From Haloferax marisrubri (lineage in GTDB: Archaea > Halobacteriota > Halobacteria > Halobacteriales > Haloferacaceae): DNA of 64,000 nt. Positions 4,328 to 61,100 of the stretch are shown here, one piece after another. The stretch's first letter is position 1, and every line of letters starts with the position of its first letter. The position numbers and the translations under genes are program-made. Where the stretch lies: positions 412,801-476,800 of the forward strand of contig NZ_LOPW02000018.1 of the NCBI RefSeq assembly GCF_001469875.2. The letters are read 5' to 3'. Below the pieces are notes generated by a model. That model had not been told where the DNA came from. It did no database searches and saw nothing but the letters and a program-made list of their open reading frames with translations.

Positions 4328-4500
4328 GGGATAGCACGGTGGTGCGAGGTAATGTGGCGATACTGCGGGATAGTACGGCGATATTTCGGGACAGTACGGC
4401 GATGCTGTGGAGGGGCTGCTGCGTCAGCGATGACCGCGATGGGTGCCGGAGTGCTGTCAGAGGGCACAGTACGGTACTGCTCGGGAGGGCAGTACGGTGT
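4328..4500. repeat. Cluster of five degenerate GGGAYAGTACGGYG repeats
   Basis: Five copies of a roughly 14-bp element lie between the HTH promoter and the 3' end of the LolA-like gene. They read GGGATAGCACGGTGG (4328), GGGATAGTACGGCGAT (4367), GGGACAGTACGGCGAT (4388), GGGCACAGTACGGTA (4462) and GGGCAGTACGGTG (4487). All face the same way and are separated by about 21-75 bp. No ORF in this region resembles a protein. The elements could be binding sites for the adjacent regulator or remnants of a tandem duplication. Confidence 0.65.
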
Positions 4501-4590
4501 CGGTTCGGCGGGGCCCATCGCAGTTCAACCGATGCGCCGGTAGATAATATAAAAAGGGGGCCAGTTTCTGACCCAGAAACTCGCGCGATT

Positions 4591-5775
4591 TCAGGCGGGA
4601 CAGCCGACCGAGCGACCGACTTCGACGAGACGGTCCGTTTCGACGCCAGTCCCGCGGACAGTGTAGCCGTAGCCGTCGCAGTTCCACGACACCGAGGTGG
4701 TCGGTCCGTAGTCGATAGTCGCCGGCCGGCCTCCCACCGTCGTGTCGCGCTCGTCGGCGTCGATGTCGAGGGTGTAGTTGAACTTCGCCACCGTGAGTTC
4801 GCGGCCGCCGGCGGCGTACCGAAGACCCACCCCGTCGATGCGGCCGGTGGTCCGCGTGGCGTAGACCAGTTCGTACGCGGGCGGGACCGTCGGTTCGGGG
4901 ACCGAAATCGAACTCCGCGCTTCCAAGTCGACCCTGCTTCGGAACCACTCGGTGCTCGGCGTGTTCGGTCGCTCGACGGTCGTGTTAGCGTCTATCTCCG
5001 GGCGGAACGCGTCCGCCGACACGGCCGCGTCGAACGTCACGTTCGTGTACGTCGTCGTCACCGACCGTCGGGTCCCGTCAGCCGTCCACGCCGTCTGTTT
5101 GCGAAGCGGGTAGAACCGCTCGCTGTCGAGCCACAGTCGCTGGTGGTAGCCCGCCTCGCTCCGGTTCGTCTCGGGCGCGATGTCGATAACGTACGCCTCG
5201 CGTCCGCCGACAGTGTCGGTCCCGACGAGCTCGACCGCGTAGCTACGGTTCGCGTCCGCACCCGGCACGACACCGGCGTGGCGCGGCACGACGGGGAGCG
5301 GCGACACGCCGATTGACTGCGGGCGACCGTCGCCGTCGGTCAACCCCGCGGCTGCGACGAGCAGTTGGAGCCGCTCCGCCGTCCGCGACTCGGTCGGCGG
5401 CCCCGTCAGTTCGATGACGGTCACGGCGTCCCGGTCGGTGTCGTGAAGCCAGAGCGTCGAGCCGTTCGAGACTTGTCTGTCGTACTGTCGTTTCCCCGCG
5501 TCCCGGAAGCGCACGCGCTTTCGCTCCGTCTCGGGGACGAGCGTTACGTCGGCGACGGTCCGAGACGCGACCGTGTCGTTGGCTCGAATCTCGACCGTCT
5601 GCGTTCCGGTGAGCGTGTCGATGCCGCGGTAGCGCTCGGTCACGTTCGCGTCGACGGAGGGGTCCACATCGCCTATCGCGCCCCCCGTTGTCCAGAGGAC
5701 CGCGGAGAGCGCGACGGCGACGAGCACGAACGTGGCGAGCGTGCGTCGGTTGAGTCGGAGTGGAGGGCGAGTCAT
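4591..5775 (-). CDS. LolA/RseB-like exported lipid-binding-type protein
   Basis: This 394-residue product starts at ATG 5775 (MTRPPLRLNRR). The 26 residues upstream in the same frame have no such character. Residues 10-32 form a hydrophobic signal anchor after a basic N-terminus. The rest is a beta-rich extracellular domain with the pattern of haloarchaeal LolA/COG2834-like proteins: an early TGTQTVEIRAN strand, RKRVRFRDAGKRQYDRQVSNG, LWLHD, a central REAYVIDIAPE and LWLDSERFYPLRKQ. There is no lipobox Cys, so membrane retention would be through the uncleaved anchor. It is divergent from the histidine kinase gene. No partner gene indicates a substrate. Confidence 0.65.
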   Translation of the reverse strand: MTRPPLRLNRRTLATFVLVAVALSAVLWTTGGAIGDVDPSVDANVTERYRGIDTLTGTQTVEIRANDTVASRTVADVTLVPETERKRVRFRDAGKRQYDRQVSNGSTLWLHDTDRDAVTVIELTGPPTESRTAERLQLLVAAAGLTDGDGRPQSIGVSPLPVVPRHAGVVPGADANRSYAVELVGTDTVGGREAYVIDIAPETNRSEAGYHQRLWLDSERFYPLRKQTAWTADGTRRSVTTTYTNVTFDAAVSADAFRPEIDANTTVERPNTPSTEWFRSRVDLEARSSISVPEPTVPPAYELVYATRTTGRIDGVGLRYAAGGRELTVAKFNYTLDIDADERDTTVGGRPATIDYGPTTSVSWNCDGYGYTVRGTGVETDRLVEVGRSVGCPA

Positions 5776-5953
5776 ACTGAGAGCACTCTGCCGAGGAGTT
5801 CGACTGCGTGTCGGTGAGCCGGCGGCTAAATACTTCTGGACGACCGGCCGCACCGAACGCCCATCGGACCGATGGCTTACCCTTTGTGCGCTCGCCGTAC
5901 ACCTCTCGAATCGCCGGGTAGTTTAAGCTCGTGTGGATGGTAAACAATCAATA

Positions 5954-7519
5954 ATGTCAAGAAAGCTGAGGGAGTTGTTCGAACACATCGAATCCGACCT
6001 CATTCTTCGAGAGTTCTTTCAGGAGGTGACCGAGTACGCGATATTTCTCCTCGACGCGGACGGGCACGTGGCGACGTGGAACGAGGGCGCGAGACGGATA
6101 AAGGGCTACGAACGGGACGAGATTATCGGCCGCCATCTGTCCGTCTTTTATCCTACTGACGGAGAAGGGACGTCCCCCGAAACGGTGCTCTCAGTCGCCG
6201 AGTCCGAGGGGAGCTACGAAGAAAAAGGGTGGCGCGTCCGGAAAGACGGGTCGCACATCCTCGCACACGTGACCGTCCGGGCGCTGAACAACGACGAGGG
6301 GGAACTCAGGGGCTTCACGAAAATCGTCCGGGACATTACGGAGACCTACGAGTACCGACAGGAGTTAGAACGGAATCGAGACCGACTCGAACGCACCGAG
6401 CAACTGGCCGATATCGGCGGGTGGGAAGTCGACTACGAGACCGACGAGCTACAGCTAACCGATGGAACCAAGCGACTGGTGGATATCCCGCCCGATACGG
6501 AACTGACGCTCGACGAACTGCGGAACTTCTTCCACGAAGACGACCGGACGGTCATCGACGAGGCTATCGAGGGCGCGCGAACCGACGGCGAACCGTTCGA
6601 TATCGAGATGCGAGTGATAACGGCAACGGGTCGAACGCGGTGGGTCCAAGTTCGCGGCGAGCCGACGGGCGACCGGACGAACGTCCGCGGCGCGGTGCGC
6701 GATATCTCGGACAGAAAAGAGCGCGAAGAGCGGCTCACGGTGCTGAATCGGGTGCTTCGCCACAACCTTCGGAACAACCTCAACATCGTCAGCGGCTACG
6801 CGCGGGAGCTCCGCCGGGACCTCGACGCAGTCGATATCTCGTCGCTGGGCGACGACGACTACAGGCGGTTGCACGAGACGCTGGAGAACCTCAGCGAGAC
6901 GACCAAGGGCATCGACGCGGAACTGCGGACGCTCGACAAGTTGGTCGACGCGGCGAGTCAGTTCTCGGAGGAGGCGATGGTGTCGAAGACGAACCGAATC
7001 ATCGAGAACGCCGACGGCCTCATGTCGACCGGCGAAAAGGCCCGTCGGTTCGAGAACGTCGTCAAGGAGAGCACTGACAGGCGTCCAGTCCGCGTCGAGG
7101 ACGTGTTCGCCGACCTCAAACGGACCTACGAGCAGAAATATCCCGAGGTGGAGATTCGACTCGAACTGGACGAACGGACTGTACTCGCGAGCACGCACTC
7201 GCTGTACCTCGCGCTCGACGAACTCGTACAGAACGCCATCGTCCACAACGACGAGGACCGCCCCGTCGTCGCGGTCTGGTCGCGACGCCTCTCAGGAGAG
7301 CGAGTCGCAATCGCGGTCGAGGACAACGGTCCCGGTATCCCACAGACCGAACGGGAGATTCTGAAACGCGGGAAAGAGACACCCCTAACGCATGGGAGCG
7401 GGATGGGGCTGTGGACCGTCCACTGGTTCGTCACGCAGTTCGACGGCGAGGTGTCTATCTCGGACCGCGCTGAGGGCGGGTCAACGGTCGAACTCAGACT
7501 CCCCGCGCTGGAGAACTGA
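5954..7519 (+). CDS. PAS-domain sensor histidine kinase
   Basis: The product is 521 residues from ATG 5954; an in-frame GTG at 5933 would add seven. No membrane segment is seen, so it is probably a soluble sensor. Two PAS domains occupy residues about 15-130 (FLLDADGHVATWNEGARRI...RDITETYEYRQEL) and 150-255 (IGGWEVDY...RDISDRKEREERL). The dimerisation/phosphoacceptor helix has the haloarchaeal H-box LRHNLRNNLN with His about residue 270. The ATPase domain shows the N box ELVQNAIVHND, the G1 box VEDNGPGIP and the G2 box GSGMGLWTVHWFV. No receiver gene is adjacent; the Bat-like regulator 0.7 kb downstream is a possible but unproven partner. Confidence 0.93.
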   Translation: MSRKLRELFEHIESDLILREFFQEVTEYAIFLLDADGHVATWNEGARRIKGYERDEIIGRHLSVFYPTDGEGTSPETVLSVAESEGSYEEKGWRVRKDGSHILAHVTVRALNNDEGELRGFTKIVRDITETYEYRQELERNRDRLERTEQLADIGGWEVDYETDELQLTDGTKRLVDIPPDTELTLDELRNFFHEDDRTVIDEAIEGARTDGEPFDIEMRVITATGRTRWVQVRGEPTGDRTNVRGAVRDISDRKEREERLTVLNRVLRHNLRNNLNIVSGYARELRRDLDAVDISSLGDDDYRRLHETLENLSETTKGIDAELRTLDKLVDAASQFSEEAMVSKTNRIIENADGLMSTGEKARRFENVVKESTDRRPVRVEDVFADLKRTYEQKYPEVEIRLELDERTVLASTHSLYLALDELVQNAIVHNDEDRPVVAVWSRRLSGERVAIAVEDNGPGIPQTEREILKRGKETPLTHGSGMGLWTVHWFVTQFDGEVSISDRAEGGSTVELRLPALEN

Positions 7520-7550
7520 GGTGGCTATTGGACATTAATTGGGCCATCTG

Positions 7551-8200
7551 AGTAGTTTAGACTTTTCAGATAATCTAGATTATTTGAATTCCCCTAATAC
7601 TGGAAGTTCGTCAGGGAACTCACAGTATCCCGGCAATGCAGACATTACGAAGCTAGCCGTCGAGGAACGCGAGCCGGAACAGTACCATACTTCGGGATAT
7701 CCAGATTATTTGGATTACTAACTGGACCTGACTCGACCTCGAAGCGGGCCGGAAGCGACTAATCCCGCTCATACGCGACGGAGAGAGCGGTCAGAGAAAC
7801 ACGGTAGTACTGAGAACTCTAGTTAGTCGAAGAACCACCGTTATCGAGGCTATCCACGTAGCTTCCGTTATCCACACATGCGCCTAATCTGAGCCATGCG
7901 GGCCGTTCTGATTTTCGTAGTTATCTGAATAATCTGCGACTCGTGCAGAACCTCCATGAGTTCGATACCGTGTGGAGGTGACGACAGGTGAACCGTTTAG
8001 ATTATCTGAGATATGTGGGTTATCTAGAATATATACATAGTTTGGGCCGCCTGATTACTCCGCGCAATTCACAGGAGGAAGCAACCGCGGACAACCTACG
8101 TGGCTGGAAGAACTCACGTTTCCTGAGAAATCCGGAACCTCCAACACACTTGTATTATCTGGGAAACCCAGATTATTCAAATTTCTTGAGCTATTGCTAG
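7551..8200 (+). repeat. A+T-rich intergenic region with degenerate 9-bp-period arrays
   Basis: The 734-bp gap between the kinase and the Bat-like gene holds several short arrays built from a 9-base unit close to TTATCTAGA. They lie near 7551-7595, 7694-7720, 7840-7885, 7915-7938, 7995-8057 and 8149-8200. Examples are GATTATCTGAGATATGTG and AGATTATTCAAATTTCTT. All have the same orientation. Read as codons, the unit gives a Leu-Asp-Tyr type triplet, which creates spurious ORFs of 60 and 70 residues here. No gene is supported in this gap. Confidence 0.7.
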
Positions 8201-8253
8201 CTGCAACGGTAAGATAGCGAACGCCTTTGTCAACGGGGGGTTGGGTTCTATCC

Positions 8254-11118
8254 ATGTCCGATGTCCCCGATTCTGGCAGCGTGCTGGTCGTCAGCGAGAG
8301 CGACTGGGCGACGCGGTTCGCTGAGGGACTCGATTCACGACCGGGAGTCACCGTGCTGGAAGCCGAGACGAAGGCAGCGGCACTCCGCGCAGTCGAAGCG
8401 GACGAGGTCGACTGTGTCGTGGCCGACGCCGACCTCGCGGACGCGACCGCCGTCGACCTCCTCACGGACGTTCGCTCAACGGTCGCAACTCTTCCCGTCG
8501 TCATCGCCGCAGACGGTGGGAGCGACGTTCTCGCGAGCGAGGTCCTCGGCGCGGGCGCGACTGACTACGTCGCGCTTGACGCCGACTCGCCGGACGTCGA
8601 AACACTCCTCGCGCGGACCGGTCGTGCGCTCCGGTCGGCGCGACAGGACGCCAACGAGCGTGAACGCGCCAGGCAGTTCGACGCGATGTTCGACGACGAA
8701 CGGACGGCGACGTGGGTACTCGATGGCGAGGGGTCGCTAACTCGGGCGAACCGGACGGCGCGCGAACTCCTCGACGCACCTGTCGACCCACTCGTCGGTG
8801 AGGCCTTCTGGTCACTCCCGTGGTGGACGGGGGGAGACGGCCCGACGAGCGACGACGTGCAACAGCTCATCGAGGACGCGCTCGAAGGAACGGCCGGGAA
8901 CGCGGTCGTCCCACAGCCATCGGTGGCCGGAAAACGACGAATCGTCGAGCTATCGGTTCGCCCCGTGACCGACGAGCGCGGGGAAGTCGCGTCGGTCGTG
9001 GTCGAAGGTATCGACATCACAGCGCGGGTGTCACTCGAACGAGACCTCCGGCGTTCCGAGGAACTCCACCGCGTCACGCTCAACAACATGACCGATACGG
9101 TCCTCATCACCGACGAGGAAGGGGCCTACACCTACGTCTGTCCGAACGTCCACTTCATCTTCGGCTACACCGCAGACGAGTTGCGTGAACGGGTCCCTAT
9201 CGGCGAACTGCTGGGGGATGACCTCTTCGACCGCGACGAGCTCGCGGAGCGCGGCGTCCTGAAAAACATCGAGAGCACGGTGACCGACAAAGCCGGCCGC
9301 GAGCACACCCTCCTCGTCAACGTCCGCGAGGTCTCGATTCGGGACGGGACGTTGCTTTTCAGTTGCCGCGACATCACGAAGCGCAAGCAGCGCGAGGACG
9401 CGCTGACGACGCTTCACGAGACGGCTCGCGAGTTCCTCTACACCGGGACTCACCGACAAATCGCCCAGCGCGTCGTCGACGACGCGCCCAGCGTGCTCGC
9501 GCTCAATGCGAGCGCCGTCTATCTCTTCGACACCGACGCCAACGTGCTCAGACCGGCGGCGTACTCGCCGGCGATGCGCGAGGCCCACGGGCCACTCCCG
9601 ACAGTTCCCGCGGACGGGGAGACGCTCCCGAGTCACAGTTTCGTCGAGAACAGGCCGCTGTACTTCGATGACGTGCACGAGTCCGACCGGTTGGAGAACG
9701 CCGTGACTGGCCTCCGGAGCGTCGCGTACGTCCCACTCGGCGACCACGGAGTGTTCGTCGCTGGCTCGACCGAAGTCGGCGCCTTCGACGCGGTGGCGCG
9801 GGAACTGACCGACCTGCTCGCGGTGACTGCCGAGGCGGCGCTTGACCGCGTCACGCGCGAATCTCGGCTCCGCGAACAGGACCGAACGCTCCAGCGACAG
9901 AACGACCGGCTCACCGAGCTAAACCAAATCAACGAGACCATCCGCGAAATCGACCAAGCGCTCGTCGGCGCCCAGACGCGAGAGGAGATAGACTACACCG
10001 TCTGCGAGCTACTGACCGCCGTCGACCGGTTTGCGTTTGCGTGGGTCGGTTCCGTCGACCCTATCAGCGAAACCGTTGAGCCCCGCGCGTGGGCCGGTGA
10101 CGAACAGGGCTATCTCGACAGCACTACGTTCGAAATTGCGGCGTCATCGGTCGACCCGGCAGGACGCACGGCGGCGACCGGAGAGGTGACTACCGTTCCC
10201 AACGTCGCGTCCGGTTTCCGGGACGAGCCCTGGCGAAAGGGCGCGCTCACCCGAGACTACCTGTCGGTACTCAGCATCCCGCTCGTCTATAACGACCTCT
10301 CGCACGGCGTGTTGACGGTGTACGCGACGACCCACGACGCCTTCGACGAGACGGCAACCGCTGTCTTGGCCGAACTCGGCGAGACCATCGCGTCGGCGCT
10401 GAGCGCCCTCGAACGGAAGAACGCACTGCTCACCACGGCCGTCACCCGCGTCGGGTTCGTTGTCGACGACCCCACGTTCGTCCTCTCGCGGCTCGCCCGC
10501 GACGCGGAGTGCACGCTCACTTACCAAGGAGGAGTCCAGCAGTCCGCCGAAGGGAACTACGTGTTCGTCACCGTCGAAGATGGGGCAGTCGAATCCGTCG
10601 CGGCCGCGGCCGACGAACTGGTCGCTGTCGCCGACGTGCGACGGATAAGCACCGACGGGGACGCCGGCGTCCTGCGTCTCCGCTTGACGCAGCCGTTTAT
10701 CGCACCGGAGCTTGCGGACCACGGTGCCGTCCTCGCCGAGGTTCGGGCGACCCCCGAGGAGACGACGCTCGTCGTCGACGTCCCCGAGAGTATCGACGTT
10801 CGAAACGTCACGCACCTCGTCGACGAAGCGTTCGCCGGCGTCGAACTCCGGACCAAACAGACGCTCGACCAATCGACCGAGCGCGACCTCTTCTCGCGGT
10901 TCCTCGACAAGCTGACAGAGCGGCAGCTCGAGGTGCTCCAGACGGCCTACTACAGCGGCTACTTCGAATCGCCACGGGAGAACACGGGCGAGGAGGTCGC
11001 CGCGACGCTCGGCATCTCCCCGCCGGCGTTCTACAAACACGTGCGGACCGTCCAGCGGAAACTGTTCGCGACGCTGTTCGACGAGCACTCCGGTTCCGTC
11101 TCCGGACGGGCTGTGTAG
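8254..11118 (+). CDS. Bacterio-opsin-activator-like multidomain regulator (receiver-like, PAS, GAF, HTH_10)
   Basis: This 954-residue protein starts at ATG 8254 (MSDVPDSGS); an upstream in-frame TTG at 8227 is less likely. The N-terminal domain (about 5-125) has the fold pattern of a response-regulator receiver (VLVVSESDW, DCVVADADL, GATDYVALD). PAS-type domains follow at about 140-260 and 270-385, and GAF-type domains at about 390-545 and 570-725. Next come the Bat-type beta domain (about 730-880, RVGFVVDDPTFVLSRLARDA) and a C-terminal HTH_10 (LTERQLEVLQTAYYSGYF...TLGISPPAFYKHV). Bat proteins respond to redox, light or oxygen; the target here is unknown. It is isolated between two 9-bp-repeat regions. 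Confidence 0.92.
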   Translation: MSDVPDSGSVLVVSESDWATRFAEGLDSRPGVTVLEAETKAAALRAVEADEVDCVVADADLADATAVDLLTDVRSTVATLPVVIAADGGSDVLASEVLGAGATDYVALDADSPDVETLLARTGRALRSARQDANERERARQFDAMFDDERTATWVLDGEGSLTRANRTARELLDAPVDPLVGEAFWSLPWWTGGDGPTSDDVQQLIEDALEGTAGNAVVPQPSVAGKRRIVELSVRPVTDERGEVASVVVEGIDITARVSLERDLRRSEELHRVTLNNMTDTVLITDEEGAYTYVCPNVHFIFGYTADELRERVPIGELLGDDLFDRDELAERGVLKNIESTVTDKAGREHTLLVNVREVSIRDGTLLFSCRDITKRKQREDALTTLHETAREFLYTGTHRQIAQRVVDDAPSVLALNASAVYLFDTDANVLRPAAYSPAMREAHGPLPTVPADGETLPSHSFVENRPLYFDDVHESDRLENAVTGLRSVAYVPLGDHGVFVAGSTEVGAFDAVARELTDLLAVTAEAALDRVTRESRLREQDRTLQRQNDRLTELNQINETIREIDQALVGAQTREEIDYTVCELLTAVDRFAFAWVGSVDPISETVEPRAWAGDEQGYLDSTTFEIAASSVDPAGRTAATGEVTTVPNVASGFRDEPWRKGALTRDYLSVLSIPLVYNDLSHGVLTVYATTHDAFDETATAVLAELGETIASALSALERKNALLTTAVTRVGFVVDDPTFVLSRLARDAECTLTYQGGVQQSAEGNYVFVTVEDGAVESVAAAADELVAVADVRRISTDGDAGVLRLRLTQPFIAPELADHGAVLAEVRATPEETTLVVDVPESIDVRNVTHLVDEAFAGVELRTKQTLDQSTERDLFSRFLDKLTERQLEVLQTAYYSGYFESPRENTGEEVAATLGISPPAFYKHVRTVQRKLFATLFDEHSGSVSGRAV

Positions 11119-11234
11119 GTTCGTTATCTAGCTAAAACTCTCTCGATTGGTTTGGTAGTTAACCACCTCATATTCCCTTGTACACCTATTACGCATCGGT
11201 AGAGCGTCTGGGACACGACCGGCGCTCGGGAACC

Positions 11235-11378
11235 ATGAGAGATGTTGAACCCACCCCCGACGAGAAAGGAACGTACGAATGCTTCGAGTGTGGCGGTATC
11301 GTCCTCACTGAACACAACCCGCTGCGCTGTCCGGACTGCGGTGGGGCGATGCGCAACCGGCAGACCGCGATTGAGTAA
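11235..11378 (+). CDS. Rubrerythrin-like zinc-ribbon mini-protein
   Basis: This 47-residue protein starts at ATG 11235 (MRDVEPTPDEKG). It consists of one metal knuckle pair: YECFECGGIVL (Cys-x2-Cys) and LRCPDCGGAMRNR (Cys-x2-Cys), a rubredoxin/zinc-ribbon arrangement. Very similar stand-alone mini-proteins are common in haloarchaea and are annotated as rubrerythrin-like domain proteins. Its role is unknown; zinc or iron binding is inferred from the four cysteines. It stands alone about 115 bp after the Bat-like gene. Confidence 0.8.
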   Translation: MRDVEPTPDEKGTYECFECGGIVLTEHNPLRCPDCGGAMRNRQTAIE

Positions 11379-11446
11379 TCGACGGCTCGAAAGCCTCGCC
11401 TCACTCAGCGGTGGTCGACCGTCGGCGCAGGCAAGCTATCACTGTC

Positions 11447-11508
11447 TCGCTAGATTATACAGATTATCTAAATTATTCAAATAATCCAAATTATCTAGAT
11501 TCTTTGAT
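11447..11508 (+). repeat. 9-bp-period A+T-rich array (right of the Bat-like gene)
   Basis: About six consecutive 9-mers run from the TAGATTATA at about 11452: TAGATTATA, CAGATTATC, TAAATTATT, CAAATAATC, CAAATTATC, TAGATTCTT. Orientation and unit match the arrays at 7551-8200. With them it brackets the Bat-like gene and the zinc-ribbon gene. It lies in a gene-free stretch from 11379 to 11740. Confidence 0.7.
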
Positions 11509-11560
11509 ATCGCCCTCCAGTCTTGTCTAGTTTGCGCAAGTAATAGCAGGTCACAGAGAG

Positions 11561-11600
11561 ACAAGGAGGAAGTCCACGGCTTTAGCCGTGGGAGGAATCC
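11561..11600 (+). mobile_element. Orphan IS200/IS605-type right-end hairpin (TnpB omegaRNA-like end)
   Basis: The stem CCACGGCT (11574-11581), a TT loop and AGCCGTGG (11584-11591) form a perfect 8-bp hairpin. The flanks, AAGGAGGAAGT before and GAGGAATCC after, closely match the conserved right end of haloarchaeal IS200/IS605 (IS1341-type) elements, where the same hairpin is the 3' part of the TnpB guide RNA. No tnpA or tnpB coding sequence is present nearby, so this is a solo end or remnant. The identification rests on recall of the motif and the perfect stem. Confidence 0.6.
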
Positions 11601-11740
11601 GACGCGCGGTATGGCCGTTTCGAGTCACTCACGGGAAGAAACGCTGCAGGCACGGAACCGGTCGCCATAGCGTCAGCTTCAGCAGAAGTCAGTACACGAG
11701 ACGTTGAGAAGGAGACAACAAAACGAAACGACCGCGGCCG

Positions 11741-14700
11741 TCAGTCGTTGCCGTGTGCGGCGCTCCCAGCGCCTGCGTCCGGAGTCCGCAGCACGTCCGG
11801 GTCTGCGTCAGGTCCGAGCGGTTCGACGCGCACGCTCGATACCTTGAACTCCGGAATGCCGGCCTGTGGGTCGAAGGTCTCCTGCGTGAGTTTGTTGACC
11901 GCACCGGCCGCGAAGTGCATCGGGATAAACAACGTCCCGTCGCCGACGCGGTCGGTCACCTCCGCTTTGACGACGATGTCGCCACGGCGGGATTCGACCC
12001 TGACGTACTCGCCGTCCGAAACGCCGAGTTCCGCGGCGGTCGTCGGATTGATTTCGATGAAACTCTCGCCGACGTGGCTCATGAGACCCTCGACGCGTCG
12101 GGTAATCTGTCCGGTGTGCCAGTGGTAGAGGACCCGCCCGGACGTGAGTGTGAAGGGGTACTCCTCGTCGGGGAGTTCGCCGGGGTGGCCGCCGTCCGCC
12201 GGCACGAAGCGGGCCAAGCCGTCGTCGAAGTTGAAGTTCCCTTCCTCGTAGTCGTAGAGATACGGTGTTCCGGGGTGGTCTTCGTCCCAGCACGGCCACT
12301 GAAGTCCGTGCTCGTCGCCCGAGTCGAGTCGCTCGTAGCTGACGCCGCCGTAGATGGGCGTCAGGTCGCTAATCTCGTCCATGACTTCCCGCGGGTGGTC
12401 GTAGCCCCAGTCGTAGCCCAGTCTGGCTGCCAGTTCCTGCGTAATCTCCCAGTCCTGGCGCGCCTTTCCGGGCGGTTCCGCGGACGCCCGAACCCGCTGT
12501 ATCCGGCGCTCGGTGTTGGTGAACGTGCCGTGTTTCTCCGGCGAGGTCGCCGCCGGCAGCACCACGTCCGCGTGCTCTGCGGTCTCCGTCATGAAGATGT
12601 CCTGTACGACGAGGAAGTCCAAGCTATCGAGCGCCTCGCCGGCGTGCTGGATATCGGGTTCCGAGAGCGCGGGGTTCTCCCCGACGATATACATCCCGCG
12701 GAGATTGCCCTCGTGGGCCTCCGAAAGCATCTCCGGCACTTTGAGGCCGGGTTCGTCCGGCGGGCGCTCGCCCCACGCCTCGGCGAACTTCTCGCCGACC
12801 TCGTCGTCGGCCGGGTCCTGATACCCGGGGAGACTGCCGGGCAGAGTTCCCATGTCGCCGCCGCCGCCCTGCACGTTGTTCTGGCCGCGGAAGGGCGACA
12901 GTCCGGCACCCGGTTTCCCGACCTGCCCGAGGGTGAGCGCGAGGTCGGCCATCGCGAGGAGGTTTTCCGTCCCGTGGCTGGATTGGGTCATGCCCATCGC
13001 CCAGCCGAAGACGACGTTTTCGGCGTCTGCGAGCGTCTCGGCGGCCGACTGCAGTTCGTCGGGTGAGACGCCGGCCAGTTCCTCGACTTTCTCGGGGGTG
13101 AACGCCTGGACGTTCCGTTTGACCTCCGCGAACCCTTTCGTATTCCGTTCGATGAATTCCTCGTCGTGCAGGTCGTGCTCGGTGAGATATCGGATGAGTC
13201 CGTTGAGCCACGCCACGTCGTAGCCGGGCGTCGTTCTCGTGTACTGGTCGGCGTGTTCGGCGATGCCGATTTTCCGGGGGTCGAACACCACGAGGTCGGC
13301 CCCGTCGCGGACGTTCTGCTTGATGCGAGTCGCCAACACCGGATGCGACTCGGTCGTGTTCGACCCGCTGATGAGGTAGGCGTCGGCCTCGCCGATGTCC
13401 TCGTTGATGCGGTTCGTCATCGCACCGTAGCCGAGCGTCTGTTGGAGCGCCGCCACCGTCGACGAGTGACAGAGCCGGGCGCAGTTGTCGATGTTCTTCG
13501 TGCCGAGCACCTGCCGCGCGAACTTCTGGATGAGGTACGCCTCCTCGTTGCTCCCCTTCGACGACGCGAGGCAACTGACCGCGTCGACGCCGTGTTCGTC
13601 CTGAACCTCGCGGAGTTCGCCGGTGACGTAGTCGAGCGCCTCGTCCCACGACGCCGTCTCGAACTCGCCGTTCTCGTTTCGAATCAGTGGCCTCGTGAGC
13701 CGCTTCTTGCTGTTGGCAAAGTCGTGTCCGAACTTCCCCTTCACGCACGTCGAGAAGTTGTTGGCCGGGGCGTTGTCCGGGTCGTCGACGGGTTGGACGC
13801 CGAGGGCGTTGCCGTCTTTACCCCACATCTCGAACCGGCAGCCGACCGCACAGAACCCGCACGTCGTCTCCGCTTTGTCGATTTTCCCCAGTCGGTAGTC
13901 GCTGACGAGCGACGCGATGTCGAATAGTCGACCCTCCGGCAGCGTCTGCGCCGCGATGTTCTCGGCGGTGTGTTCGCCCGCGAGCATGGCCTTCCGACCG
14001 TACTCCCCGAGGAAATCGGACGCTCGGCGTTTGCTCTGGGCCATGTATCGGGCGATGCCGCTTCGTCCTTCCTGTCCCGCCTCGGCTTCGCCGCCGGCGC
14101 TCCCCGCACTACCGGGTGCGGGCGAGCGGTTCGGTGCCGTCGTGTCGTCGAGGGTCTCTACCTCCTCGTGTTCGATGACGTTCCCGACTGAGTTTCGCTG
14201 CGTGAACCCCGGAAGCGGAAGCGTCCCCGCGCCACCGATGCCTTTCTCAGTCAGGGCACCGGTCGGACAGACCGTGGCACAGTGTCCGCAGGAGACGCAG
14301 TCGGAGTCGGCCATCGTCTCGGCGTCGGACTGGAAGCCGATGCGGGTGTCCTCTCCGGAGCCCTCGATGCGGAGAACTCCTTCGACCTGAACGTCGTTAC
14401 AGCCCTCGACGCACCGATTACAGAGGATGCACTTGTTGCGGTCGATTTGGATGAACGAGGAACTGTCGTCGAGCGGTTCGTACTCGCTTCGCTCGTCGAA
14501 GACGCCGTAGCGCGGGTGGTCGACCCCCTCGTTGATGGCCGTCTCCTGGAGTTCACACCGCCCGTTCCCGTTACAGGTCGTACAGCGCAGATTGTGATTG
14601 GAGAGGACGAGGTCGAGGTTGACGCTCCGGGACTCCTCGGCGGCGGACGTGTCGGTCTCGACCGTCAGCCCGTCGGTGGCCGGGAACGAACAGGAGGGGA

Positions 14701-15067
14701 CGACCCCATGTTCGTCGGTTTCGACCATGCAGGTTCGACACTCGCTCCGAGGGCCGATTTCGTCGCTCGCGTCGCCCTCGCGGTCGTAGTAACAGAGCGC
14801 CGGAACGTCGGCGTCTTCGTCGAGGCTGTCGGCGCCGGGGTCCACGCTCACGACCTCGTCGTCGACGGCTTGCATGGCGTCGATGACGGTCGACCCCGGT
14901 GGGACGGTGACCTGCGTTCCGTTGACGGTGACCGTCGTCGGGGTCTCGCCGTCGGTTCCGACGGGTGGGTCGTTCGCGGTCCCGGTCTCGAACTCCGCCG
15001 TGACCGGCGTCTCGTGCTGCGGGTCGTCTAGCTCCGGAACGCCCGGGAGTGGGTCGTCAGTACTCAT
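11741..15067 (-). CDS. fdhA: Formate dehydrogenase alpha subunit, NuoG-FdhF fusion type (molybdopterin)
   Basis: This 1108-residue enzyme oxidises formate (or a related substrate) at a bis-pterin Mo/W centre. A ferredoxin-like 2Fe-2S domain (about 45-140) contains SECRTCMVE and VPSCSFP. A NuoG-type His/Cys motif follows (SNHNLRCTTCNGNGRC), then two 4Fe-4S motifs (CILCNRCVEGC near 215 and CVSCGHCATVCPTG near 260). The catalytic part begins with its own 4Fe-4S motif (CGFCAVGC...STCVKGKFG). The metal-ligand segment NCARLCHSSTVA, near residue 529, has Cys where E. coli FdhF has Sec. There is no Tat signal, so it is cytoplasmic. Its ATG overlaps the stop of the NuoF-like gene by 4 bp (ATGA), so the two are translationally coupled. 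Confidence 0.92.
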   Translation of the reverse strand: MSTDDPLPGVPELDDPQHETPVTAEFETGTANDPPVGTDGETPTTVTVNGTQVTVPPGSTVIDAMQAVDDEVVSVDPGADSLDEDADVPALCYYDREGDASDEIGPRSECRTCMVETDEHGVVPSCSFPATDGLTVETDTSAAEESRSVNLDLVLSNHNLRCTTCNGNGRCELQETAINEGVDHPRYGVFDERSEYEPLDDSSSFIQIDRNKCILCNRCVEGCNDVQVEGVLRIEGSGEDTRIGFQSDAETMADSDCVSCGHCATVCPTGALTEKGIGGAGTLPLPGFTQRNSVGNVIEHEEVETLDDTTAPNRSPAPGSAGSAGGEAEAGQEGRSGIARYMAQSKRRASDFLGEYGRKAMLAGEHTAENIAAQTLPEGRLFDIASLVSDYRLGKIDKAETTCGFCAVGCRFEMWGKDGNALGVQPVDDPDNAPANNFSTCVKGKFGHDFANSKKRLTRPLIRNENGEFETASWDEALDYVTGELREVQDEHGVDAVSCLASSKGSNEEAYLIQKFARQVLGTKNIDNCARLCHSSTVAALQQTLGYGAMTNRINEDIGEADAYLISGSNTTESHPVLATRIKQNVRDGADLVVFDPRKIGIAEHADQYTRTTPGYDVAWLNGLIRYLTEHDLHDEEFIERNTKGFAEVKRNVQAFTPEKVEELAGVSPDELQSAAETLADAENVVFGWAMGMTQSSHGTENLLAMADLALTLGQVGKPGAGLSPFRGQNNVQGGGGDMGTLPGSLPGYQDPADDEVGEKFAEAWGERPPDEPGLKVPEMLSEAHEGNLRGMYIVGENPALSEPDIQHAGEALDSLDFLVVQDIFMTETAEHADVVLPAATSPEKHGTFTNTERRIQRVRASAEPPGKARQDWEITQELAARLGYDWGYDHPREVMDEISDLTPIYGGVSYERLDSGDEHGLQWPCWDEDHPGTPYLYDYEEGNFNFDDGLARFVPADGGHPGELPDEEYPFTLTSGRVLYHWHTGQITRRVEGLMSHVGESFIEINPTTAAELGVSDGEYVRVESRRGDIVVKAEVTDRVGDGTLFIPMHFAAGAVNKLTQETFDPQAGIPEFKVSSVRVEPLGPDADPDVLRTPDAGAGSAAHGND

Positions 15068-16581
15068 AGTTTGTCAGAACAGGTTCCGCTCGGACAGCGG
15101 CCGTCGGCGTGTGCTTCGAAACTCGATTCGAACTCGTCTATCGCAGTCAGCACCGGACGCGGTGCATCGGCGCCAAGCTGGCAGTTACTCGACTGGGTCA
15201 TGACCCGACCGAGTTCGCGTATCTTCTCCCGGTCGAACGAACCTCGGTAGACCGCTCGCAACAGTTCGGTGAGTTGGACGGTTCCCTCCCGTCCCGGCAC
15301 GCACCGCCCGCTGTTGGCTTCCGAGGCAAAGCGCGCTCGCTCTCCGGCAGTCGCGACCGCACACCGCTCGTCGTTCAACAGTTCGACGACGCCTTCCGTT
15401 CCGAGGCCGGCCGCAGTCAGTCCGGCCGCAGTCGGTGTGACGTCCAACGTCCGGGAGAGGCCGCCGAAAACCCCGCCGACGCAGGCCATCTTGAACGACC
15501 CCTCCAGTTCGACGGCGTTCCGAACCGCCGAGAGGTGGGCGTCCGAGCCGACCTCTATCGTCGCGGGCGCGGTCACGTCGCCGGTGACAGTCAGCAGTCG
15601 CGTCGTCGATTCGGCGTCTCTATCGTTGCCCTCGGGGTCCGAGAGCGCGAGACGTATCTGGGCGAAGGTCCGCGGCGTGTGGATGACCGTCGGGCGACCG
15701 TACAGTCCGTACTCGGCCGGCGTCGGGGGCTGGAGACGGGGCTCGATTCTATCCGCACCCTCTATCGCTTCCAGCGCCGCCGTCGGTTCGCCGGCGCGGT
15801 ACTCGTCCGGACCGGTGACGACTGCCGGCACGACCGGGAGTTCGTCCGCGGCGGCGTCGATAGCCTCCTGAAGATGTGCTTGCAGTTCGGTGTCGGTCTC
15901 GGCGACGTGGATGACCGCGTCAGTCGTCCCGAGGTACTCGGCGACGGCCGCCACTCCGTCGAGCACCGACATCGGCGACCCGGCAAGGAGTGTTCGGTCC
16001 GCGCGCTGGCGGTCGTCCGCGTCGTTCGCGTTCACGACGACGACCGGGTCGCCGTCGGTCTCTCGCGCGCGTCGCCAGACGTCCGCGGCCGGTTCGTCAG
16101 CGGCGGCGTCGCCTCTGCCTCGACCGACGAGTCCGGCATCCGCGATGGCGCCCGCGTCTCTCTCGAGCGAGTGAAACAGGTACGCTGTCGGGTCCAGCGG
16201 GTCGACCCACCCACAGGGGCCGAGGACGCTCCGCGTTCCCACCGCGAGCGGCCCGTGGGTCGGAACCGGGAGCGTCGTCGTCTCGGCGTCGTGTTCGACG
16301 ACTGCCGCGGCACCGTCCGTCGGTAACTCCCCTTCTTCCATAGCGGTGACGAGGTCTCGGACCCTCGATGTCTCCGGGGCCGGGAAGAACGCTGTCCGCC
16401 CCGCGTCGGTCGCGAGAACCAACGGGTCGTACTCGCTGATTCCGGTGGGCCCCGTTCGAAGGACCGCGACGGAGTCGGCGGTACTGCGTGCGGCACTCAA
16501 GACACGCGCTCCGCGCTCCGTCCGTCCGGCTCCCGAGACCCGGAGTACCGGCGACCGGACTGCGTTTCCTGTGCGACTCAT
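15064..16581 (-). CDS. NuoF-like partner of formate dehydrogenase, with degenerate cofactor motifs
   Basis: This 505-residue protein starts at ATG 16581; an in-frame GTG at 16587 adds two. The order of segments matches NuoF/NADH dehydrogenase subunit F: GLVGRGRG, VVVVNANDADD, GEPTAALEAIEG...EPRLQPPTPAEYGLYGRPTVI, and a C-terminal NSGRCVPGREGTVQLTELL...SNCQLG. Every cofactor motif is altered. The glycine-rich FMN loop, the NADEGEPG loop and GEETAL are not conserved. The Cys-Gly-x-Cys-x2-Cys cluster motif keeps only its middle Cys, plus the fourth Cys in SNCQLG. A structural or altered diaphorase role is more likely than normal NAD reduction. It is upstream of and overlaps the FdhF-type gene. 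Confidence 0.75.
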   Translation of the reverse strand: MSRTGNAVRSPVLRVSGAGRTERGARVLSAARSTADSVAVLRTGPTGISEYDPLVLATDAGRTAFFPAPETSRVRDLVTAMEEGELPTDGAAAVVEHDAETTTLPVPTHGPLAVGTRSVLGPCGWVDPLDPTAYLFHSLERDAGAIADAGLVGRGRGDAAADEPAADVWRRARETDGDPVVVVNANDADDRQRADRTLLAGSPMSVLDGVAAVAEYLGTTDAVIHVAETDTELQAHLQEAIDAAADELPVVPAVVTGPDEYRAGEPTAALEAIEGADRIEPRLQPPTPAEYGLYGRPTVIHTPRTFAQIRLALSDPEGNDRDAESTTRLLTVTGDVTAPATIEVGSDAHLSAVRNAVELEGSFKMACVGGVFGGLSRTLDVTPTAAGLTAAGLGTEGVVELLNDERCAVATAGERARFASEANSGRCVPGREGTVQLTELLRAVYRGSFDREKIRELGRVMTQSSNCQLGADAPRPVLTAIDEFESSFEAHADGRCPSGTCSDKL

Positions 16582-16772
16582 TCTCACAGATAAGGAGACA
16601 CGGCGGGGTTAAAAAATCATCCCAACCCACTCGCGTCGGAGTGCGACTTCGAGGCGTTCGGGAAGCCGACTGGAAGTCGATTCGAGCGCGAGTGGGCGGG
16701 AAACAGGTGACTGCTTCAGACGGGATAGCGAGTGGAGCAAAAAGCTAAGGCGGCGACGCGTCGTCTACCGTG

Positions 16773-17163: not shown

Positions 17164-17544
17164 TTATTCGGTCACCGCAACCGCTTCGATTTCTATCGCG
17201 GCTCCTTTCGGCACGTTGCCGACTTCGACCGCGCTCCGCGCCGGCGGCTCGTCGTCGAAGAACCCGCTGTACACCTCGTTGAACTCCTCGAAGTCGTCGA
17301 TGTCGTCGAGGAAGACGGTCGTTTTGAGCACGTCGTCTAAGGACGCGTCCTCGGCGGCGAGAATCGCCGCCACGTTTTCGAGACACTGCTCCGTCTGGTC
17401 GCCGACCGAGGCGTCGTCGAGTAGCTCGCCGTCGGGCGTGAGCGGGAGTTGTCCCGCGGTGAGGAGTAGCTCGCCGTTCGTCGTCGCTTGACTGTACGCG
17501 CCAACAGCCGCCGGGGCGTCCGAAGTGCTAATCGTGCGCTTCAT
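17164..17544 (-). CDS. ridA: RidA family reactive intermediate/imine deaminase
   Basis: This 126-residue protein starts at ATG 17544 (MKRTISTSDAPAAVGAYSQA); upstream in-frame sequence to 17646 lacks family similarity. It shows the RidA hallmarks: GAYSQATTNGELLLTAGQ at the start, a mid-protein QCLENVAAILAAEDASLDDVLKTTVF and a C-terminal PPARSAVEVGNVPKGAAIEIEAVAV. The arginine in PPARSA binds the substrate carboxylate in the family. Such trimers hydrolyse enamine/imine products of PLP enzymes. It is monocistronic. A second RidA lies at 46580-46966. Confidence 0.92.
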   Translation of the reverse strand: MKRTISTSDAPAAVGAYSQATTNGELLLTAGQLPLTPDGELLDDASVGDQTEQCLENVAAILAAEDASLDDVLKTTVFLDDIDDFEEFNEVYSGFFDDEPPARSAVEVGNVPKGAAIEIEAVAVTE

Positions 17545-17934
17545 GGCCGGTCGTTCCGGACGGCCCGTATTAAATCCAGTTCGGGGACGGACGCCGCACA
17601 CGTCGTGTAAGAAACCGGAGTGCTTGTGGGATGTCTCGGCGCACACGTGAGTTGACGACTACCGTTACAGGTGGTCGAGCGGTGGTGCGTCAACTGTCGG
17701 TCTGTCAGGGTGCGCCAAGCGTGGCCGGAACCGTCGACTGCGATGGAACCGGGTCATCGTCGGTGTGTTCGCTAGACAAGTACGGCGTGAGAAAACACAG
17801 ATAGTAAAATATCTGGTAGTTTGAGAATACACTACACTACTCTACTCAACCGTAATATATCATATTCTATAAAAATAAAGTCTACCCGAGCTATAAATGG
17901 TGACTGTTCGCAGAGGTTGAGTGGAGTTCACACA
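17545..17934. other. Gene-free 390-bp divergent region
   Basis: No gene is supported. It contains a 6-bp inverted repeat, CAGATA (17798-17803) and TATCTG (17810-17815), and a run of ACTAC-type short repeats near 17829-17847. It then becomes A+T-rich toward the alcohol dehydrogenase promoter. Confidence 0.5.
17889..17898 (+). promoter_or_regulatory. TATA box of the Zn-alcohol dehydrogenase gene
   Basis: AGCTATAAAT lies about 37-46 bp upstream of the ATG at 17935, implying a short leader of roughly 10-20 nt. Confidence 0.5.
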
Positions 17935-19098
17935 ATGTCTATGGACGCAGTCGTCTACAAAGGCGAACGAGACGTCGCAGTCGAAGCGGTCGAAGAGCCC
18001 CAGATTCAACACCCGAACGACGTCGTCATCGACATCACGACGACCTGTATCTGCGGGTCCGACCTGCACATGTACGAGGGGCGGACGGCCGCGGAGCCGG
18101 GAATCGTATTCGGCCACGAGAATATGGGTATCGTCGAAGAAGTCGGCGAAGCCGTCAGCAGTCTCGAAGTCGGCGACCGCGTCGTCGCGCCGTTCAACGT
18201 CGCCTGCGGCTTCTGTGAGAACTGTGAAAACGGCTACACGGGCTTCTGTACGAACGTCAATCCGGGGTTCGCCGGGGGAGCGTACGGCTACGTCGCCATG
18301 GGCCCCTATCAGGGAGGGCAGGCCGAGAAGCTCCGCATTCCGTACGCTGACTTCAACGCGCTCAAGCTACCCGACGGGCGGGAGCACGAGGACTCGTTCG
18401 CACTGCTCGCGGACATCTTCCCGACGGGGTGGCACGGCACGGAACTCGCCAATCTCGAATCCGGCGATTCCGTCGCCATCTACGGCGCCGGTCCGGTCGG
18501 CCTGATGGCCGCCTACAGCGCCAAACTCAAGGGCGCGGCCGAGATTTACGTCGTCGACCGCGTTCCCAGTCGCCTCGCGCTCGCCGAAGAACACTGTGAC
18601 GCCACGCCCATCAACTTCGAGGAGAGCGACCCCGTCGAACAGATCAAAGAGATTCACGGCGGCGGCGTCGACAAGGGCGTCGACGCGGTCGGCTACCAGG
18701 CCATCGACCCGGACAAGGAAGCCGACTCCGCGTACGACCCCGCCCGGGAGAACCCGGCCGTCGTCATCAACAACCTCATTCGGACGGTCCGACCGACCGG
18801 CGAACTCGGCATCCCCGGTCTCTACGTGCCCGACGACCCCGGTGCTCCCGACGAGATGGCCGCGCAGGGCCGTCTCGGTATCGACTTCGGTCTCCTCTTC
18901 GAGAAAGGTCAGGCCCTCGGCACCGGCCAGTGTAACGTCAAGGAGTACAACCGAAAACTCCGCGACATGATCATCGAGGGACGCGCCGACCCGAGTTGGG
19001 TCGTCTCCCACCGCGTCGGCCTCGAAGACGCGCCCGAGATGTACGAGAAGTTCGACAACCGCGAAGAGGGCGTCACGAAGGTCCTGCTGGAACCCTAG
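17935..19098 (+). CDS. Zn-dependent alcohol dehydrogenase, glutathione-independent formaldehyde dehydrogenase-like
   Basis: This 387-residue medium-chain dehydrogenase starts at ATG 17935 (MSMDAVVYKGERDV). The catalytic zinc motifs are CICGSDLHMYEG and FGHENMG. The structural zinc loop CGFCENCENGYTGFC follows. The Rossmann motif VAIYGAGPVGLMAAYSA lies near residue 182. The extended loops (GGAYGYVAMGPYQGGQAE, DILADIFPTGWHG-like) and the late insert around QGRLGIDFGLLFEKG match the Pseudomonas-type formaldehyde dehydrogenase subgroup. It probably oxidises formaldehyde or a small aldehyde/alcohol with NAD. The formate dehydrogenase 1.4 kb upstream would take the resulting formate, but that link is inference. 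Confidence 0.9.
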   Translation: MSMDAVVYKGERDVAVEAVEEPQIQHPNDVVIDITTTCICGSDLHMYEGRTAAEPGIVFGHENMGIVEEVGEAVSSLEVGDRVVAPFNVACGFCENCENGYTGFCTNVNPGFAGGAYGYVAMGPYQGGQAEKLRIPYADFNALKLPDGREHEDSFALLADIFPTGWHGTELANLESGDSVAIYGAGPVGLMAAYSAKLKGAAEIYVVDRVPSRLALAEEHCDATPINFEESDPVEQIKEIHGGGVDKGVDAVGYQAIDPDKEADSAYDPARENPAVVINNLIRTVRPTGELGIPGLYVPDDPGAPDEMAAQGRLGIDFGLLFEKGQALGTGQCNVKEYNRKLRDMIIEGRADPSWVVSHRVGLEDAPEMYEKFDNREEGVTKVLLEP

Positions 19099-19172
19099 GA
19101 CTAGGAGCAGCGGAGCCTCCTAACCCGGTTCCCACCGATACTCCTTTGCCGGTTTGCCCGGTATCGCGTTCT

Positions 19173-19334
19173 ATGTGCCAGTACTGCAGTTACCGGTATC
19201 ACGACGGTTGGACGCAGTTGTTGGAGTACGACGAGGTGTATCAGACGGTAATCAGCGGTGAGTCGGAGTCGACCTACGGGTTCCACGAGTCGTGGGACGA
19301 ACTCCGAGACGAGGTCGACTTCGGTGCGGCCTAA
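19173..19334 (+). CDS. Small CxxC protein, unknown function
   Basis: This 53-residue product starts at ATG 19173 (MCQYCSYRYHDGWTQLLEYD). It has one Cys-x2-Cys pair at residues 2-5 and an acidic helical C-terminus. Its stop abuts the stop of the convergent cobW gene with no gap. It may be a small metal-binding protein linked to the CobW neighbour, but no family is recognised and it could be non-coding. Confidence 0.45.
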   Translation: MCQYCSYRYHDGWTQLLEYDEVYQTVISGESESTYGFHESWDELRDEVDFGAA

Positions 19335-20468: not shown

Positions 20469-20745
20469 GTCGATGCTGTGTGACGCCTCGGGAGTGCTCG
20501 TAATGAAGACTGGGTCGGCCGACCCACACGGGGGCAGAACCCGTCATTCTCCGAACTCCCGCCGTGAAAACACATCGTCTGTTTTGATTGACATATCTGG
20601 TTTGCCGTCGGTTCGCATCGTGTGGCTCGTCCTCCGAGCGAACCGATGAGTACGGCTTTGACGGAGGCGTTCGCGACGCCGAATTCGCTCGGCGGTCCGC
20701 GAGAACGGCACATCTTTTTGGTCGCCGGTACTGACGAACGACCAG

Positions 20746-59644: not shown

Positions 59645-60823
59645 TTAGGTTGTGAATAGCCGGCGGGGGAAGTCGGCCAGCGGCTCCGCCCCGTCGGACG
59701 TGACGACGAACGTCTCGCTGAGTTCGACGCCGAAGTCGTCGAACCAGAGGCCGGGGATGGTGTGGAACGTCATGTTCTCTTCGAGGACGGTCTCGTCGCC
59801 TGGGCGGAGGCTCGCCGTGTGTTCGCCCCAGTCCGGCGGGTAGCCCAGCCCCATCGAGTAGCCGATGCGGTCTTTCTTCTCGATGCCGTACTCGGCGATG
59901 GTGTCGCGCCACGCCTTCTCGACGGCCTCGCAGGTCACGCCGGGTTCGACCGCGTCGAGCGCGGCTTCCATCCCCTCGACGACGATGTCTGCCCGCCGGG
60001 ACAGCTCTTCGGGCGGGTCGCCGACGAACGTCGTCCGCGCGAGCGGCGAGTGGTAGCGGTGTCGACAGCCCGAGAGTTCGATGATGACCGGGTCGCCGTC
60101 CTCGAACTCGCGGTCGGTCCACGTGAGGTGCGGCGTGCCGGTGTGGTCGCCCGAGGGCATCAGCGGGACGATAGACGGGTAGTCGCCGCCGTAGTCGTCG
60201 GTGCCCTCGATGAGCGCCGAGTAGATGGCCTCGGCGGCCTCGTACTCGGGGACGCCCTCCTCGATAACGTCGAGGCCGGCCTGCATCGCGTTCTCGGAGA
60301 TGCGGGCGGCCTCGCGCATGTAGTCGAGTTCGGCGTCGGACTTCTTGATGCGCACGCGGTTCACGAGGAGCGTCGTGTCCTCGAAACTCGCCTCGGGGAG
60401 GTTCTTTTGCAGGCGCGTGTAGGACTTCGCGGTGAAGTAGTACGCGTCCATCTCGAGGCCGACACGGGCGTCGTCGACGCCGAGGTCCTCCAGCACGGCC
60501 GCGACGAAGTCCATCGGGTGGAGGTCGTGCGGCGACTGGACGTGGTCGTCGCTGTACGGCCGAATGCTCTCCTCGCTCAACGTGGTTGTCGCGCGCGCGC
60601 CGTTGGCGTCCATGTCGCGGCCGACCCACACGGGTTCGTCGCGGTCCCGCGTGACCACGACGCCCTGATGGACGTAGAACGACCAGCCGTCGTAGCCGGT
60701 GAGATAGTTCATGTTCGCGGGGTCGCTCACGAAGAGCGCGTCCAGTCCCCGCTCGGCCATCCGCTCTTTCGTCCGGGCGATGCGTCTGTCGTACTCGGCG
60801 CTGTCGAACACGGCTCTTGGCAT
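59645..60823 (-). CDS. doeA: Ectoine hydrolase DoeA/EutD (M24 peptidase fold)
   Basis: This 392-residue protein starts at ATG 60823 ([19 protein letters not shown]); 57 codons upstream in the frame are A+T-rich leader sequence. It matches Halomonas DoeA in length (about 399) and along its whole course: [131 protein letters not shown] and [13 protein letters not shown]. DoeA opens the ectoine ring to N-acetyl-diaminobutyrate. Several canonical M24 metal ligands are absent, as in DoeA. It is followed by glutamate dehydrogenase. Confidence 0.85.
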
Positions 60824-60856
60824 GGGAACCTCTATCGAACTATCGAATAGGGCCCG

Positions 60857-60868
60857 TAAAAATTTTTT
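60857..60868 (-). promoter_or_regulatory. A+T-rich TATA-like region of the doeA operon
   Basis: TAAAAATTTTTT lies 34-45 bp upstream of the doeA ATG. The direct repeat TATCGAAC/TATCGAAT at 60832-60847 lies between it and the start codon. Confidence 0.4.
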
Positions 60869-60882
60869 GTGGACCTCGGGCA

Positions 60883-60897
60883 CGGATACTGTGTACG
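60883..60897. promoter_or_regulatory. Shared 15-bp motif CGRATACTGTGTACG, copy 2
   Basis: CGGATACTGTGTACG starts 60 bp upstream of the doeA ATG, just before the TATA-like region. It matches 14 of 15 bases of the site at 45088-45102. Confidence 0.4.
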
Positions 60898-61034
60898 CCG
60901 GCGAGAAAGAACAGACACAATAGTGTATAAATTGAGCAATACAAAGATCCATTAGAGCGAGAGAAAAGAATTGGATTTCGGTTCCGGTTGGCATATTCGT
61001 TCAGTACAGCAGATATGAGCAGAAGAAACACAAG

Positions 61035-61100
61035 CTATTTAGATTATTCAGGTTATTTGAATTGCTTAGATTATAGTAAAGTTAGATTATAACAATACTA
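61035..61100 (+). repeat. 9-bp-period A+T-rich array (upstream of the LLM gene)
   Basis: The run TATTTAGAT, TATTCAGGT, TATTTGAAT, TGCTTAGAT, TATAGTAAA, GTTAGATTA keeps a 9-base period in the same orientation as the arrays near 7551-8200 and 11447-11508. It ends about 80 bp before the LLM gene. No gene is supported in the 356-bp gap. Confidence 0.7.

Follow-up and report, generated by a model that had tools for sequence, protein, structure and literature searches.

Arrays of a 9-bp repeat as putative dispersed partition sites of a Haloferax megaplasmid

Introduction

The nature of the centromeres of archaeal chromosomes and plasmids, and whether they are clustered or dispersed, were named as outstanding questions in a 2016 review (PMC5120986). 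In the parS/delta/omega system of plasmid pSM19035, the ribbon-helix-helix (RHH) protein omega requires at least four contiguous 7-bp repeats (WATCACW) to activate ParA, and these repeats overlap the par promoters (PMC9499535). Here we analyze a 64,000-nucleotide stretch of Haloferax marisrubri DNA (hereafter the window), which corresponds to C18:412801-476800 of the 3.9-Mb home genome (G000), C18 being a Haloferax megaplasmid contig of 558,626 bp. The window carries arrays of a 9-bp repeat on both sides of a gene for a Bat-like regulator. We propose that these arrays are most probably dispersed, iteron-type parS or centromere-like sites that serve the megaplasmid's own partition system, consisting of a ParA ATPase and a small partner protein.

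AspA, a component of the partition system of the archaeal plasmid pNOB8, binds a palindrome and spreads. The complete AspA-ParB-ParA system comprises three proteins, including a ParA-type ATPase (PMC5120986). SegB, of the SegAB system of Sulfolobales, binds the 13-bp palindrome TCTAGAsTCTAGA at mostly intragenic, chromosomal sites (PMC5120986, PMC12284271). On the secondary replicons of Deinococcus radiodurans, replicon-specific direct repeats upstream of parAB (cisII/cisMP), mostly 18-bp iterons recognized by cognate bacterial ParBs, have both ori and parS activity (PMC7671480). In the open-licence full-text literature we found neither a described centromere for haloarchaeal replicons nor a description of the repeats reported below, although subscription journals may hold one.

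Results

The 9-bp periodicity around the Bat-like gene (Table 1) is real. Upstream of the gene (7520-8254), matches at lags of 9, 18 and 27 exceeded those in dinucleotide shuffles, with z values of 4.9, 5.8 and 5.3, and downstream (11440-11520) the same was true of lags 9 and 18 (z of 4.5 and 4.4). Tandem Repeats Finder (TRF) reported a period-9 array at 11454-11495 and a further one in the window at 61036-61057. The unit is near TTATYTRRA, equivalent to RRAT-T-ATYY, and is thus a near-palindrome with a single asymmetric central base. A preliminary description had the arrays filling the 734-bp gap before the Bat-like gene, all in the same orientation. Arrays are indeed present there, but as a number of short clusters that together occupy only ~156 of 735 bp, and the claim of a common orientation is only partly right, as several stretches of the near-palindromic unit match both strands. 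The array that was said to follow the gene also exists, but a small DUF7129 gene stands between the two. Two consecutive units (TTATYTRRA twice, with up to 2 mismatches) were matched 14 times on C18, compared to 0-2 times in locally shuffled copies of the contig.

Across the whole home genome the two-unit pattern of this repeat, designated type A, gave 15 matches, 14 of which are on C18, including copies beyond the window; the reversed pattern gave none. A matrix scan of all of C18 returned few loci (36310, 37666, 420347-420517, 420802-420981, 424246-424308 and 473835-473879), and 240 kb of contig C10 contained no array with a 3-unit score of at least 8. The arrays at 36310 and 37666 flank the gene of an ATPase of the ParA/Soj type (C18:36744-37604, reverse strand) and an overlapping small gene that encodes an acidic protein of 138 aa. 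This type-A parA operon (C18:36331-37604, reverse strand) is ~383 kb from the window arrays on the same contig, and the nearest orc1 gene is ~15 kb away from it (C18:20294-21445). Type-A parA (at least 89% identity) was found in 13 of 15 congeners, with arrays on both sides of the operon in all 13. These genomes contain 5-18 pattern matches each, mostly on a single contig, the one that carries type-A parA. The two genomes that lack type-A parA, G003 and G005, have 2 and 1 matches, which is background when compared to 1 and 2 for the reversed control; the lone match in G005 has no array around it and was taken as chance.

Paralogous parAB cassettes carry repeats of their own. Type-B ParA (43-45% identity) is present in 15 of 15 genomes and type-C ParA (51% identity) in two. 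In the 700 bp upstream of parA, lag 9 ranked top or near-top in all 15 type-B loci (z9 of 4.4-9.9) and in both type-C loci (z9 of 7.0-7.5), where the units are near AAATTGTAG and TTAGGTACC, respectively. Genomes were scanned for type B with the consensus pattern AAATTKTRS; a matrix learned by expectation-maximization drifted to a low-information palindrome and was discarded. In the home genome, type A is matched 14 times on C18 and 0 times on C6, and type B 0 times on C18 and 12 times on C6, the type-B replicon, at sites near 69, 96, 101, 180 and 248.6-248.9 kb. We consider this double dissociation to be the strongest result of the analysis. Type-B arrays occur in all 15 genomes, G003 and G005 included. 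Among the matches listed, each genome has 8-21 compared to 0-1 for reversed controls, and almost all are on the contig with type-B parA, with G009 also having matches on its contig C7. The plasmids with a counterpart of the home type-B locus, at 83-91% DNA identity, belong to Haloferax. Both type-B and type-C parAB adjoin orc1 genes.

The C7 matches in G009 form two type-B array sites, at ~14.3 kb and ~49.2 kb, with matching units in opposite orientation on a contig other than that of type-B parA; they may belong to the same replicon or to an inverted duplication. On C18 itself, the region 248000-254500 holds the type-C parAB with its own 9-bp arrays and orc1. In G001 this cassette is found on a distinct contig of 103.8 kb, so two replicons may have fused into a cointegrate in C18.

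ParA matches AAA_31 with an E-value of 1e-32 and conserves the Walker-type KGGxGK motif. Its profile matched Soj/ParA structures in the PDB with E-values of 1e-21 to 1e-30, among them pSM19035 delta (delta', 2oze). In each locus examined the gene that follows parA starts between -48 and +27 bp from the parA end. Its product of 124-241 aa, annotated as a hypothetical protein in the named plasmids discussed below, has an FxDLD/E-like motif in its N-terminal part, then an acidic linker of low complexity and, at the C-terminal end, a conserved domain of ~70 aa. Searches with the C-terminal domain against Pfam, PHROGs and PDB sequences returned nothing convincing, the best PDB match being a proteasome subunit with an E-value of 0.06, which is noise. 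The alignment of this domain has a strand-helix-turn-helix look that is only suggestive of an RHH fold. The searches used likewise found no sequence similarity to SegB, and no SegB structure was among the PDB matches. The position of the gene in the operon and the pattern of repeat specificity suggest that the small partner binds DNA.

The association of ParA with period 9 extends well beyond Haloferax. Of 293 genomes sampled from the order, 131 have ParA homologues (E-values up to 1e-40), representing 49 of 87 genera. At every one of the 66 haloarchaeal loci with enough upstream sequence, 9 scored best among periods 5-15, and the combined z was above 3 in 60 loci and above 4 in 50. As controls we reused 79 bacterial ParA loci from a ParA-alignment scan of genome contigs, in which bacterial ParAs predominated; here 9 was best in 12 and z exceeded 4 in one. 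No relatives were found in viral contigs scanned with the ParA C-terminus. The haloarchaeal units are diverse in sequence and include TACGATTCG-like, ACCTNAGG-like and TCTACTGTG-like examples.

Dispersed arrays were also found on other plasmids. Haloferax mediterranei pHME505 (parAB genes E6P09_RS16675/RS16670) has intergenic type-B arrays at 188.3, 235.25, 388.7 and 430.5 kb, next to annotated genes of unrelated function. The Halorussus vallis plasmid has arrays at 17.3, 21.5, 83.5, 119.8 and 124.0 kb in addition to those at parAB. In Halorussus vallis NZ_CP100004.1, the segments 17300-21580 and 119779-124059, which are 102.5 kb apart, show identical match patterns, which suggests that a block of 4 kb or more was duplicated together with its partition-type arrays. 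The order in Halobacterium pNRC200 (VNG_RS11095/RS11100) is orc1 - array - parA, and the Salinigranum and Halorussus cassettes have arrays with no annotated orc1 within 3-4 kb.

Two of the window sites are kept in place between species. The arrays upstream of the Bat-like gene recur at the corresponding position in G014, G004 and G011, the three congeners whose Bat is 95% identical. An array is likewise found ~80-140 bp upstream of the M24/DoeA-like gene in five congeners (G014, G009, G002, G004 and G011), and its core is a local conservation peak, with a mean pairwise identity of ~0.75 compared to 0.3-0.6 around it, in an intergenic region that is otherwise fast-changing. The array downstream of the Bat-like gene was not seen next to Bat orthologues of other species. 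In five genomes, Bat orthologues of 63-68% identity are encoded on a different contig and lack such arrays, and the link to the Bat-like regulator drawn in the preliminary description is thus incidental. Between species the 734-bp gap itself (7520-8253) has diverged by ~29%, but indels are rare (1, 2, 6 and 9 nt), a pattern of constrained length in a stretch that is non-coding and has no match to an Rfam RNA.

Discussion

The co-occurrence of each repeat with its cognate parA type, the flanking of parAB, the double dissociation and the period of 9 in all 66 loci together argue that the arrays are partition sites. The dispersed arrays on pHME505 and the H. vallis plasmid, together with the retained positions upstream of the Bat-like and M24 genes, point in the same direction. 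A candidate cis-acting repeat was present at the par operon in every sampled haloarchaeal locus (66/66), in all type-B (15/15) and both type-C loci, and on either side of the operon in all type-A loci (13/13).

By analogy with pSM19035, for cooperative loading, ParA activation and autoregulation alike, the C-terminal domain of the small protein would load cooperatively onto the degenerate 9-bp units of an array, while its N-terminal FxDLD/E motif would contact ParA-ATP on the nucleoid and activate the nucleoid-bound ParA. A ParA gradient would then move or position the plasmid. Sites in the parA promoter probably put the operon under its own control as well, and the dispersed sites, including those in the window, would host further partition complexes and may act on neighboring genes by repression or insulation. 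Given that nine is not the helical repeat, successive units would be rotated by roughly -50 degrees and would wrap the protein as a superhelix.

Several observations weigh against this proposal. The type-C pattern has 9 matches, all at its own parAB on C18 and none dispersed, and the pNRC200 arrays are at parAB only, so dispersal is not universal. Several dispersed sites are in promoter regions, which would also fit transcription control. The array units upstream of the Bat-like gene evolve about as fast as their flanks or faster, indicating that place rather than exact sequence is conserved there. Finally, the C-terminal domain of the partner has no recognized DNA-binding homologue in Pfam, PHROG or PDB.

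The alternative that survives best, which we nevertheless consider improbable, is that the arrays are purely operators without a centromere role, through which the small protein or another factor represses parAB and scattered genes, for example the Bat-like and M24 genes, in a replicon-specific manner. Several sites do keep a conserved distance to the gene downstream, and arrays were present at every parA promoter. However, strict replicon specificity with a different sequence for each replicon, multi-unit arrays on both sides of the operon, and dispersed sites beside functionally unrelated genes fit partition better, and known RHH-type partition systems use the same repeats for both jobs (PMC9499535). 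Less probable still, the arrays could be origin iterons for Orc1/Cdc6 or a Rep initiator, and hence megaplasmid origins. The orc1 genes beside type-B and type-C parAB and the gene order of pNRC200 would fit, as would the combined activity of the Deinococcus repeats (PMC7671480). However, type-A parAB has no adjoining orc1 gene, arrays accompany ParA in every case examined, including the Salinigranum and Halorussus cassettes described above, and a single plasmid with five or six scattered origins would be unusual. Replicon specificity and the lack of an orc1 adjoining type-A parAB thus favor partition over both operators alone and origin iterons.

The preliminary description had also raised a nucleoid-protein binding array. 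The idea of a protein-binding array comes close, but the complex would be a partition complex specific to one replicon. Binding by a nucleoid or architectural protein of general function is very unlikely: the arrays are A+T-rich, dispersed and intergenic, but such a protein would not recognize one sequence on one replicon and another on a second replicon within the same cell, or leave the scanned 240 kb of C10 without arrays. A decayed tripeptide-repeat gene family, also raised there on the strength of Leu-Asp-Tyr in one frame of short stretches, or a neutral minisatellite, can for practical purposes be dismissed, given that every frame of 7551-8230 holds 9-15 stops, that substitutions in the gap have no codon-position (mod-3) bias (p of 0.15-0.37, compared to ~1e-6 or below for the Bat gene), that site positions are conserved and associated with replicon and parA, and that other ParA clades retain period 9 with unrelated sequences.

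The partition system proposed here, of the ParABS type (class Ib-like), resembles that of pSM19035 in its Soj-like ParA with a small partner, and in having contiguous arrays of short degenerate repeats at par promoters and several sites per plasmid (PMC9499535). It differs in the length of the unit, in a partner that has a long acidic linker and is not recognizable as RHH, in its archaeal host, and in sites that are also tens to hundreds of kb from parAB. It shares with SegAB an archaeal ParA with a small protein directly downstream, the genes overlapping, as well as sites upstream of segA and scattered over the replicon (PMC5120986, PMC12284271), but its sites are tandem 9-bp units that are intergenic and replicon-specific. 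The Deinococcus repeats are alike in their replicon specificity and their location upstream of parAB on secondary replicons; they differ in unit length, ParB type and combined ori function, and the passages of that account consulted here describe no dispersed arrays (PMC7671480). Like pNOB8, the plasmids considered here are archaeal with a ParA-type ATPase, but with two genes and 9-bp tandem arrays in place of three proteins.

With less assurance than for the window arrays themselves, we favor a broader proposal in which haloarchaea share one partition architecture: ParA, a previously undescribed family of small DNA-binding proteins, and tandem centromere units that are always 9 bp long. The freely diverging unit would serve as a replicon address or incompatibility code, and additional dispersed arrays would produce multi-centromere megaplasmids and may control adjacent genes. 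For named plasmids, pHME505 and pNRC200 among them, the proposal specifies the exact sequences, the cognate proteins and the map of sites to be expected. With every large plasmid most probably using a variant of the repeat that pairs with the ParA-type segregation genes of that plasmid, archaeal plasmid centromeres become directly testable by simple binding and stability tests. The repeats also offer a means of typing haloarchaeal replicons and of assigning contigs to them, and may explain incompatibility.

Other features of the window

The array sites and their neighboring genes are listed in Table 1; the Bat-like gene is a neighbor that stands outside the proposed system.

Table 1. Array sites and neighboring genes in window coordinates
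Feature	Position	Strand	Remarks
PAS/HATPase sensor kinase gene	5933..7519	+	Neighbor
9-bp array cluster upstream of Bat-like gene: TAGTTTAGA, TAATCTAGA, TTATTTGAA	7553..7588	+	Reads on - too
9-bp array cluster ATATCCAGA TTATTTGGA	7697..7714	+	
Single near-palindromic unit GTTATCTGAATAATC	7921..7932	no strand	Unchanged across four species
9-bp array cluster TTATCTGAG ... TTATCTAGA	7996..8028	+	
9-bp array cluster TTATCTGGG ... TTATTCAAA	8155..8184	+	
Bat-like regulator gene	8254..11118	+	Response-regulator, PAS, GAF, BAT and HTH_10 domains
DUF7129 small protein gene	11235..11378	+	Neighbor
Array of six consecutive 9-bp units	11449..11508	+	Tightest of the window; TRF score 49-54; 3-unit score 28-32
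M24 peptidase / ectoine-hydrolase-like gene	59645..60994	-	Neighbor of third site
Third array site, upstream of M24/DoeA-like gene	61035..61089	+	

A 21-bp tandem repeat of 2.5 copies is present at 4356-4407, near the start of an open reading frame (4339-5316) that has no Pfam or NCBIfam match. At 11549-11606 there is a non-coding block of 58 bp (AAGTCCACGGCTTTAGCCGTGGGAGGAATCC) that matches several haloarchaeal plasmids at 88-96% and is presumably the remnant of an IS200/IS605-type (insertion sequence) end. The reverse strand of 11741-16587 encodes a formate dehydrogenase alpha subunit whose N-terminal part is NuoG-like, adjoining a NuoF-like subunit; this region has ~78-80% DNA identity to many haloarchaeal plasmids.

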